From: Crocinitomicaceae bacterium | GTDB lineage: Bacteria > Bacteroidota > Bacteroidia > Flavobacteriales_D > Crocinitomicaceae | DNA: 64,000 bases | Direction: 5' to 3' | Assembly (NCBI GenBank): GCA_024639405.1 | Contig: JAHEIL010000048.1 | Coordinates: 1 to 64,000, forward strand | Shown here: piece by piece, positions 3,276 through 5,793 of the stretch | How the letters are laid out: each line of letters opens with the position of its first letter | How positions within the stretch are numbered: the stretch's first letter is position 1 | The notes under the pieces: generated by a model | Told to the model about the DNA's origin: nothing | What the model saw: the letters and a program-made list of their open reading frames with translations, nothing else | Database searches by the model: none | Program-made: the position numbers and the translations under genes

Positions 3276-4439
3276 TTAACCTTTATAATTAAATACTGAT
3301 TTTTGCTCGTTCACCATACGCTTTAATAATGGATTGGGACGATAACGATCTTCGCCATATTCGTCGAATAGTTGATTTAATGTGTCAAGAACAGTTGAAT
3401 AGCCTATTTCTTCCGCCCACTTTAATAATCCTTTTGGATAGTTTACGCCTTTTGTCATGGCAATGTCAACATCTCCGGCAGATGCAACTTGCATAAATAC
3501 AGCATCAAACGCTTCATTGATTAACATAGCGAGGATTCGATTAGAAATTTTCTTTCCAAGCACCTCATCTTGTGTGGCAGAAGGTACAATTGCATTTTCT
3601 GAATAATCATAAAATCCACGCCCCGTTTTTCGGCCAAAATAACCTGCTTCTTTGTGGCGTTTTTGCGTAAACGAAGGTTTAAATCGTGGGTCAAAATAAA
3701 AAGCTTCAAAAACAGATTCAGTTACTGTATAATTCACATCATTTCCAATGTAATCCATCAAGGTAAAAGGTCCCATTTTAAACCCAATAGATGTCATTGC
3801 CCAATCGATTGTTGCAAAATCTGCCATTCCTTCTTCATAAATTCTTAACGCTTCACCATAAAATGGGCGAGCTACTCTGTTCACTATAAAACCTGGAGTG
3901 TCTTTACATACAACTCCAAATTTACCCCAAGAATCAATTAATGCTTTTGAAAAATCTAATGTTTCTAAACTCGTTTGAACAGCTGGGATGATTTCAACCA
4001 AAGGCATTAATGGTGCTGGATTAAAAAAATGAATTCCAATCACACGTGAAGGATTTGTTAAAGCTGCTCCAATTGAAGCAATTGACAAGGATGAAGTGTT
4101 AGATGCCAAAATACACTCATCCGAAACAACTGCTTCTAATTGTTTGAAAACGGAATGTTTTATTTCTAATTTTTCAACAATTGCTTCGATCACTATTTTA
4201 CATGCTCTAAAATCTGCAATATCTGTAGAATAACTAATTCTTCCTTGAATATTAATTTTGTCATCTGCTGATAGTGTGTTTTTCTCAACCAATCGCGCCA
4301 AAATCTTGTCCAAATTGTTTTCAGCTTTTGTTAATACATCTTGATTTAAATCAACCAACACGACTTCACATGCATGTTGAGCTGCCACTTGAGCAATTCC
4401 AGCACCCATTGTTCCCGCACCTAATACTCCTACTACCAT
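3276..4439 (-). CDS. 3-hydroxyacyl-CoA / 3-hydroxybutyryl-CoA dehydrogenase (PaaH-like)
   Basis: GAGTMGAGIAQVAAQ Rossmann motif, IGIHFFNPAPLMPLVEI, DTPGFIVNRV. Confidence 0.92.
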   Translation of the reverse strand: MVVGVLGAGTMGAGIAQVAAQHACEVVLVDLNQDVLTKAENNLDKILARLVEKNTLSADDKINIQGRISYSTDIADFRACKIVIEAIVEKLEIKHSVFKQLEAVVSDECILASNTSSLSIASIGAALTNPSRVIGIHFFNPAPLMPLVEIIPAVQTSLETLDFSKALIDSWGKFGVVCKDTPGFIVNRVARPFYGEALRIYEEGMADFATIDWAMTSIGFKMGPFTLMDYIGNDVNYTVTESVFEAFYFDPRFKPSFTQKRHKEAGYFGRKTGRGFYDYSENAIVPSATQDEVLGKKISNRILAMLINEAFDAVFMQVASAGDVDIAMTKGVNYPKGLLKWAEEIGYSTVLDTLNQLFDEYGEDRYRPNPLLKRMVNEQKSVFNYKG

Positions 4440-4529
4440 ATTTTAGATTTTTTGACTTTTGGAGTCAAGATACAGGACTTATTTCAAAAAACAATTCCAA
4501 TATGAATCCAATAGTAAAGTTATTTTTTT

Positions 4530-4883
4530 TTATTTTAATGCATTTATTTTCCGTTTCAACCCACCAATCATTCGTTGATTAATGTGTAATTTTTCTATAA
4601 TAAAATCTACTTCAATAGCGAAAATTTCATTACATAGTAATAATTGTGTTTCCAATTCATATGAAGAAGAAATTGCAATACTCAAAAAATGAAGAAATTC
4701 TTTATCTGATGTTCTTCCTGAACCTTCTGCAATATTAGAAGGAATTGAAATAGCACATCTTTGAATTTGACTTTTTAAACCATATTTTTCTTCAGAAGGT
4801 AATTTAACACATAAATCATAAACATCTTTTACGATATTAAATGAATCTTTCCAAATTCCTAGATCTCTAAAGTTATGTTTCAT
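4530..4883 (-). CDS. Four-helix-bundle (S23/Avd-like) protein
   Basis: MKHNFRDLGIWKDSFNIV...YGLKSQIQRCAISIPSNIAEGSGR...FLHFLSIAISSSYELETQL is typical of this family. Confidence 0.92.
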   Translation of the reverse strand: MKHNFRDLGIWKDSFNIVKDVYDLCVKLPSEEKYGLKSQIQRCAISIPSNIAEGSGRTSDKEFLHFLSIAISSSYELETQLLLCNEIFAIEVDFIIEKLHINQRMIGGLKRKINALK

Positions 4884-4904
4884 ATTCCAGAATAATTTTT
4901 TATT

Positions 4905-4981
4905 TTCTTACCTCCTGACTCCAATTACCCCAAGTCAAATCTTCAATCTTTCTTAACTCCTGACTCCAATTATCCCAAGTC
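4905..4981. repeat. Two 32-bp direct repeats with 45-bp period (TTCTTAmCTCCTGACTCCAATTAyCCCAAGTC)
   Basis: Copies at 4905-4936 and 4950-4981 with two mismatches. Confidence 0.85.
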
Positions 4982-4989
4982 TATTTTAT

Positions 4990-5793
4990 CTATTCCCCCT
5001 TAAAAACAGGTTTTCTCTTTTCTAAAAAAGCGTTCACTCCTTCTCTAAAATCATAGGTTAAGCCAGCTTCTGTTTGCAACGTCTCTTCCAATGCAAGTTG
5101 TTCTGTCAAGGTGTTTCCATAACTTTCATTAACTGCTTTTTTGGTCAAGCCTAACGCTCTTGTCGGCATCAAAGCTATTGATTTTGAGAAAGCATTTACT
5201 TCCTCATCAAACAATTCATCTTCTACCGCTTTGTATATCATATTTAATTGATCCGCTTGCTCACCAGATATTTTATCACCCGTCATGAATAAAGCCATTG
5301 CTTTTTGAGTTCCAATTATTCTTGGTAAAAAATAAGTACCTCCTGAATCAGGAATTAAACCAATTTTCGAAAATGCTTGAACAAAAGCGGCACTCTTCTT
5401 CGCAATTGTAATATCACAAGCCAACGCAATATTAGCGCCTGCTCCAGCTGCCACACCATTTACTGCTGCAATGATTGGCTTTTCTATTGTTCGAATTCGT
5501 TCTATTATTGGATTGTAATGGTCTCGAACAATTGCTTGTAATTCTGGTCCTTCTGGATCAATTGCTTCTGACAAATCTTGGCCAGCGCAAAACGCTTTTC
5601 CTTCACCTGTTAATACAATTACTCTAACTTGGTCATTCAATGCTGCTTTGTCTAATTCACTTTGTAATAATAAAGCCATTGCTTTGTTGAAAGAATTAAA
5701 AACGGCAGGTCGATTTAATTTCAATTGACACACTCCATTTTCGATCGTTGTAAGAATTTCCATTTTCAAAAATTTTATGCAACGAAGATACAA
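4990..5793 (-). CDS. Enoyl-CoA hydratase/isomerase (PaaG-like)
   Basis: GEGKAFCAGQDLSEA, AAVNGVAAGAGANIALACDI crotonase motifs; real start probably the second Met (MEILTTIENG). Confidence 0.9.
   Translation of the reverse strand: MYLRCIKFLKMEILTTIENGVCQLKLNRPAVFNSFNKAMALLLQSELDKAALNDQVRVIVLTGEGKAFCAGQDLSEAIDPEGPELQAIVRDHYNPIIERIRTIEKPIIAAVNGVAAGAGANIALACDITIAKKSAAFVQAFSKIGLIPDSGGTYFLPRIIGTQKAMALFMTGDKISGEQADQLNMIYKAVEDELFDEEVNAFSKSIALMPTRALGLTKKAVNESYGNTLTEQLALEETLQTEAGLTYDFREGVNAFLEKRKPVFKGE

Follow-up and report, generated by a model that had tools for sequence, protein, structure and literature searches.

The locus described here lies in a 64-kb stretch of DNA (the window), in which a paaG-like enoyl-CoA hydratase gene (4990..5793; PF00378), a short ORF (4530..4883; 117 aa) and a paaH-like 3-hydroxyacyl-CoA dehydrogenase gene (3276..4439; PF02737/PF00725) are all encoded on the minus strand. 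As originally predicted, the ORF separates two fatty-acyl-CoA genes; the paaG-like gene is located upstream and the paaH-like gene downstream, and the insertion as a whole occupies the 550 nt that separate the stop codon of the former from the start codon of the latter (4440..4989, minus strand). Assignment of the ORF to the S23/Avd-like four-helix-bundle proteins was corroborated by profile matches to PF05635 (E 4.7e-32; 110.8 bits vs a cut-off of 33.8) and TIGR02436 (108.6 vs a cut-off of 24), and by an AlphaFold2 model with four helices (pLDDT 96), so that both profile score and fold place it in PF05635. Foldseek matched this model to 2GSC (the pentameric Xcc0516), the S23-family structure 2RLD and Avd (4DWL; prob 1.0, TM 0.79), with no nuclease fold among the matches. 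The four-helix bundle is the sole ORF of the element, which encodes no recombinase. Free-standing 'four helix bundle protein' genes were present in 54 of the 60 relatives examined. The dN/dS ratio was 0.07-0.14 between the window ORF and its orthologues and mostly 0.02-0.25 across pairs of S23 ORFs; by this measure, the S23 protein is functional and under purifying selection.

The ORF is bracketed by repeats, all on the minus strand. On its 3' side, immediately before the start codon of the paaH-like gene, an arm with the sequence TCTTGACTCCAAAAGTCAAA (4451..4470) represents the CT-strand of a heptamer arm; it takes part in the inverted pairs I3/I4 (12 nt, 92%) and is kept in the related genomes G006 and G025. 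The 5' arm consists of a unit copy nearest the ORF, GACTTGGGGTAATTGGAGTCAGGAGGTAAGAAA (4904..4939), with the AG-strand heptamers GGAGTCA and GGAGGTA, and a distal copy, GACTTGGGATAATTGGAGTCAGGAGTTAAGAAA (4949..4981), located 45 nt from the first and predicted by folding to pair with the 3' arm. Together they form direct repeat D1 (4904-4936 and 4949-4981; 33 nt, 94% identity), which contains both right-hand copies of TGACTCCAA. The predicted strings were recovered in full: TTGGAGTCA at 4459-4467, TGACTCCAA at 4916-4924 and 4961-4969, the left element reading in reverse as TGACTCCAA-AAGTCAAA (4451-4467) and right copy 1 as TGACTCCAA-TTACCCC-AAGTCAAA (4916-4939). The suggestion that left and right are the same element with a 7-nt difference did not hold, as the arms are instead arrays of 7-nt units with a sequence that differs by element; in the window 5' arm, heptamers have also been amplified as a higher-order unit of ~45 nt. 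This ~45-nt unit of GGAGTCA heptamers is more numerous at paaG|paaH in G006 and G025 than in the window, which has two copies. A coding origin of the repeats, suggested by a spacing (45 nt) divisible by three and by a short frame that reads TWDNWSQELRKIEDLTWGNWSQEVRK, was set aside in view of the diverged extra copies of ~45-46 nt in orthologues.

By itself, the left-right arm pair of the window is weak (12 nt, 92%): in the arm test described below its own-arm score is 19, a value equalled or exceeded by 67 of its swapped pairings. TGACTCCAA occurs three times in the window, always at this locus, where 0.6 occurrences were expected and three of 100 shuffles reached three. The window element is a degenerate member whose left-right pair alone would not be significant; its significance derives from the family-wide pattern and from the orthologues at paaG|paaH, of which the G023 arms outscored every swapped pairing. 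A role of TGACTCCAATTAYCCCAAGTC as genome-wide repeat was rejected, since the window's own genome holds just two copies, both at this locus; the letters are therefore site-specific, while the architecture is shared.

Inverted heptamer arms at PF05635 loci

Of 33 PF05635 ORFs examined in the window's own and related genomes, nearly all were flanked by their own degenerate 5' repeat, with its complement on the 3' side. Arm complementarity was scored by aligning each 5' flank (Smith-Waterman) with the reverse-complemented 3' flank of either the same or another element, in three sets comprising 235 testable loci, which were ranked by profile score, non-random and derived mostly from MAGs. Set 1 extended from genus to order (92 usable elements), set 2 represented GTDB species from an independent scan (77 usable loci) and set 3 (66 usable) covered a Gammaproteobacteria sample, Clostridia, Ignavibacteria, Balneolota, Patescibacteria and cyanobacterial plasmids. 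Own arms exhibited mean scores of 32.1, 34.5 and 39.5 in sets 1, 2 and 3, respectively, compared with 18.2, 18.5 and 17.0 for swapped arms, and exceeded the swapped 95th percentile at 67 of 92, 45 of 77 and 54 of 66 loci. The own mean of set 2 was reached in none of 10,000 permutations (p<1e-4), and restricting swaps to one genome, as a control for base composition, gave 34.9 vs 18.4 (p=5e-5).

Furthermore, own arms scored higher than the arms of orthologues within the same site at S0 (p=5e-5), S1 (p=1e-4), S2 (p=0.01) and the window site paaG|paaH (S4; p=0.05), the difference not being significant at S3. Under the Smith-Waterman scoring used, 30-40% of PF05635 loci had no significant arms. 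The notion that arms are the most conserved part of the gap was rejected, since arms (0.82) are no better conserved than the remainder of the gap (0.88). With respect to the predicted recurrence of the repeats around other four-helix-bundle ORFs, the letters themselves are absent elsewhere, but equivalent, element-specific inverted heptamer arms were found at most PF05635 ORFs. By these alignments, the same arm architecture surrounds PF05635 ORFs in at least four bacterial phyla.

Tandem periodicity near S23 ORFs was observed at a lag of 7 nt (at some loci 8, and at multiples), other lags showing no more than traces; the signal weakens at distances of more than ~200 nt on the upstream and ~150 nt on the downstream side. 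The unit logo is AGWNNTN, with AG nearly fixed and the AG strand on the ORF's own 5' side; a first, over-diverse alignment yielded no searchable motif. Units vary freely among the elements of a single genome. Under a strict criterion (a lag-7/8 array with an inverted partner), 108 of 244 S23 loci were recovered, whereas 797 kb of other sequence yielded a single instance, itself an S23 element, and two genomes without PF05635 matches contained five arrays in 333 kb, none of which had an inverted partner.

At one locus shared by the close relatives G016 and G008 (L097 and L100), the S23 element is present in opposite orientations; both arms are built entirely of GAATTAC units in one relative and of GAGTTAC units in the other, which suggests concerted rewriting of the arms, and the enclosed hairpin GGTGGCTGAGGTG..GAAGCCAC is conserved. 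The unit GAGTTAC also makes up an ORF-less hairpin at sdhA|sdhB in G008.

Empty, full and relic gaps and same-site transfer

The empty allele anticipated in relatives exists: the paaG|paaH ORF is present in just four of 22 resolvable genus members (G000, the window genome, and G006, G025 and G023) and absent from 18, G010 being at a contig edge. The closest relatives of G023 (G005, G007 and G021) lack the ORF, and the gap in genus members without the element measures about 1-210 nt. In these three relatives, the ORF-less gaps (L040, L042 and L046) contain palindromes like GTCGAATTGCAATTCGAC in two copies. The gap of G002 (L039) holds four tandem heptamers ATCACGA with neither an ORF nor an inverted partner and is otherwise empty.

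At sdhA|sdhB, empty gaps of 18-42 nt, full gaps of 454-517 nt, ORF-less heptamer hairpins of 78-79 nt (G008, G011 and G024) and deletion relics were observed, the latter including an internal-deletion relic in G021. This gap is empty in the window's own genome (34 nt), holds a 468-nt element in G025 and, in G006, a 298-nt relic of a different element with other arms and only the C-terminal half of another S23, despite sdhB proteins that are practically identical in the three genomes. Another gap carries one element in G021 and G023 and a different one, in the opposite orientation, in G005 and G007, and is empty in other genus members; the right-hand boundary of the two elements is identical, and their AG polarity tracks the ORF, not the operon. 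Empty and full gaps are alignable only at the gene ends, and a target-site duplication is not readable from them. Presence/absence polymorphism at the same site and ORF-less relatives, as looked for in DNA transposons and MITEs, were thus both found. These empty sites, along with the family-wide arms, support the original prediction of a small insertion consisting of a four-helix-bundle ORF and inverted ends between operon genes.

S23 elements between co-directional neighbours were sense in 178 cases and antisense in ten, and catabolic operons (sdhAB, fadJ-fadA and kynU-KMO) represent the recurrent sites. The S23 protein probably relies on the host operon transcript for its expression, which would explain the sense bias.

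Transfer was examined by counting changed synonymous codons in the S23 ORF and in adjacent genes for pairs of genomes with an ORF in the same gap. Synonymous changes amounted to about 1-6% in the S23 ORF, compared with 27-39% in adjoining genes: 1/112 vs 110/383 for G005/G007 (p=3e-13), 2/113 vs 240/654 for G004/G008 (p=1e-17), 6/96 vs 310/803 for G003/G009 (p=4e-12), 12/112 vs 244/657 for G005/G023 (p=5e-9) and 4/114 vs 88/326 for G016/G004 (p=6e-9). The control pair G012/G015 showed no such difference (8/107 vs 60/857, p=0.84). In the clearest pair, G004/G008, an identity plot revealed an island of 98-100% at the ORF between flanks of 80-93%, the other pairs being patchier. Codon constraint was dismissed as the cause of the low divergence, because in a G004/G016 comparison the S23 ORF is more diverged (dS 1.90) than adjacent genes (0.57-0.67), and a fully vertical, site-locked host gene is ruled out by the islands. 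Spread to the same site between genomes with diverged flanks, the hallmark sought for homing elements, was accordingly observed, although ordinary short-tract homologous recombination could in part contribute to the islands.

At the window site, the low-divergence island is mild (16/108 vs 157/597 against G006, p=0.01; 10/110 vs 156/582 for G006 against G025, p=3e-5). On this codon evidence, the descent of the window element is mainly vertical, with inheritance within the G000/G006/G025 clade, and it is therefore not a fresh insertion. In the protein tree, which has few columns and uncertain deep forks, S23 ORFs cluster by site across families of the order, and those of paaG|paaH fall inside the fadJ|fadA clade, which indicates a rare move from fadJ|fadA to paaG|paaH, both beta-oxidation gaps; the window element would thus derive from the lineage of the fadJ|fadA gap.

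Proposed mobile element and competing explanations

Taken together, we consider it probable that the ORF and its heptamer arms constitute a small mobile DNA element, which inserts in sense between cistrons, spreads in a homing-like manner and decays to ORF-less arms. The unit would comprise the S23 ORF and its flanking heptamer arrays, about 0.45-0.55 kb in total. The S23/Avd-like protein, a pentamer in the solved relative 2GSC, may bind its own arms multivalently, with one AG per 7 nt, and the putative arm-bound protein could recruit host replication or recombination enzymes, by which the element would be copied into the cognate gap. Slippage or hairpin-templated correction might keep the arms complementary at the DNA level, and internal deletions would give rise to ORF-less heptamer hairpins. 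The suggested route of mobility would therefore involve an Avd-like, nucleic-acid-binding pentamer in place of a transposase.

Mobilization in trans by a reverse transcriptase or Y1 transposase encoded elsewhere in the genome was rejected. A profile search of the window's own genome for reverse transcriptase (RVT_1) and Y1 transposase returned neither, G030 harbours seven S23 ORFs with neither enzyme and many S23 carriers lack a reverse transcriptase; since carriers without either exist, neither is required in the same genome.

It is rather unlikely that the element acts as an RNA-level intervening sequence, in which the operon mRNA would contain a stem made by the arms that is excised by RNase III and is under selection as RNA. 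The ORFs of 23S rRNA intervening sequences (IVSs) belong to the same protein family, the Coxiella IVS has a 28-bp terminal stem that is cut by RNase III (PMC4990558) and the sense bias of 178 to ten fits such a role, as does the predicted transcript fold, in which the arms pair as the outermost stem, beginning at the stop codon of paaG and ending immediately ahead of the paaH start (z -1.98). However, RNA selection should favour G-U pairs, whereas arm mismatches are strand-symmetric (154 of GU type vs 159 of CA type, the latter pairing only on the antisense strand), it is not obvious what a 7-nt period would do in an RNA helix, and some elements are antisense to their operon. By the mismatch test, the RNA stem, although predicted, is unsupported as the selected feature, and the symmetry of mismatches argues that, as far as the GU/CA test can see, arm complementarity is maintained at the DNA level.

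That S23 is an operon-internal regulatory host gene, binding the arms to tune the flanking cistrons and patchy through losses, seems improbable. Purifying selection, the clustering of protein clades by site across families of the order and the recurrence of catabolic operons are consistent with such a role, but it does not sit well with the patchy presence among sister species, the occupation of one gap by two different elements (one of them antisense), horizontal replacement into the same gap or the free variation of heptamer units within one genome. Finally, it is scarcely conceivable that heptamer arrays are merely common intergenic slippage products in gaps that happen to hold S23 ORFs: short ORF-less arrays do occur, and heptameric SSRs are known to be over-represented in some bacteria (PMC4692102, PMC4679880), but the only inverted pair in the 797 kb of comparison sequence was at an S23 locus, and the arrays of the two S23-less genomes were unpaired.

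Known elements and heptameric repeats

The mobile element proposed here shares features with several known systems. The 23S rRNA IVSs (for example those of Coxiella and Leptospira), for which a selfish or once mobile nature has been proposed (PMC4990558), likewise encode a PF05635 protein, the ORF being in sense with the host transcript and enclosed by terminal inverted repeats, and such repeats were found at the window element and family-wide. Unlike the IVSs, the window element is located between paaG- and paaH-like genes, outside any 23S rRNA gene, and S23 elements exhibit tandem 7-nt arms, no GU bias and same-site horizontal transfer. The window protein has the fold of Avd of diversity-generating retroelements, a resemblance of PF05635 that was pointed out in PMC10053308; in contrast to these retroelements, and to IS200/605 or RAYT/REP elements, its genome lacks a reverse transcriptase and a Y1 transposase, respectively. 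Spread between species at the same site with diverged flanks is reminiscent of homing elements (homing endonuclease genes and group I introns), and ORF-less derivatives that retain ends of this type are reminiscent of MITEs, but S23 elements carry no endonuclease, splicing or transposase gene, and their ends are element-specific heptamer arrays. A list in PMC5524665 files such S23/four-helix ORFs as phage elements. No prior description linking these ORFs to heptamer arms was found in the literature searched, preprints and most subscription journals being outside that search.

The S23 family is widely annotated without a function, and heptamer-arm elements that transfer between species would provide it with a testable biology.

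The S23 arms, as 7-nt tandem units between genes, also resemble heptameric SSRs, among which are the cyanobacterial STRRs. Published accounts describe the units GGGAATC in Xanthomonas and GGGGA(C/T)T in Nostoc (PMC4692102) and TAACTGA in Beggiatoaceae (PMC4679880), report 70-75 inverted heptamer pairs in Xanthomonas genomes without explanation, and state that such repeats are generally unassociated with mobile elements (both PMC4692102); no link of the repeats to an ORF was found in the passages searched of either paper. A gammaproteobacterial genome with GGGAATC arrays (G434), likened to Xanthomonas on the basis of the published repeat, contains a single S23 ORF. This ORF is truncated, has accB- and accC-like genes as neighbours (identified by eye in the translated flanks) and is bordered by GGGAATC/GATTCCC arms, the unit of which recurs in the dispersed ORF-less inverted pairs of that genome.

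S23 elements may thus represent a possible origin for several heptameric repeat families that have been described as unexplained, and we hypothesize that they are linked to all published heptamer repeats. The wider proposal, that Avd-like pentamer genes with inverted heptamer arms form a new, recombinase-less class of homing-like mobile elements in many phyla, the arms and ORF-less relics of which would be the source of the heptameric SSRs of Xanthomonas, cyanobacteria and others, is put forward tentatively, as a possibility somewhat short of an even chance.

Three further loci in G434 (L313, L316 and L319) consist of ORF-less inverted GGGAATC arrays around short spacers, and two of these enclose a shared palindromic repeat, CCCTCCCCTTCAAGGGGAGGG..TGGGTGGGGATGGG; heptamer arms can therefore flank other cargo. 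On a plasmid of Pseudanabaena galeata (L286), an S23 ORF with heptamer arms is located between cas6 and cas4.
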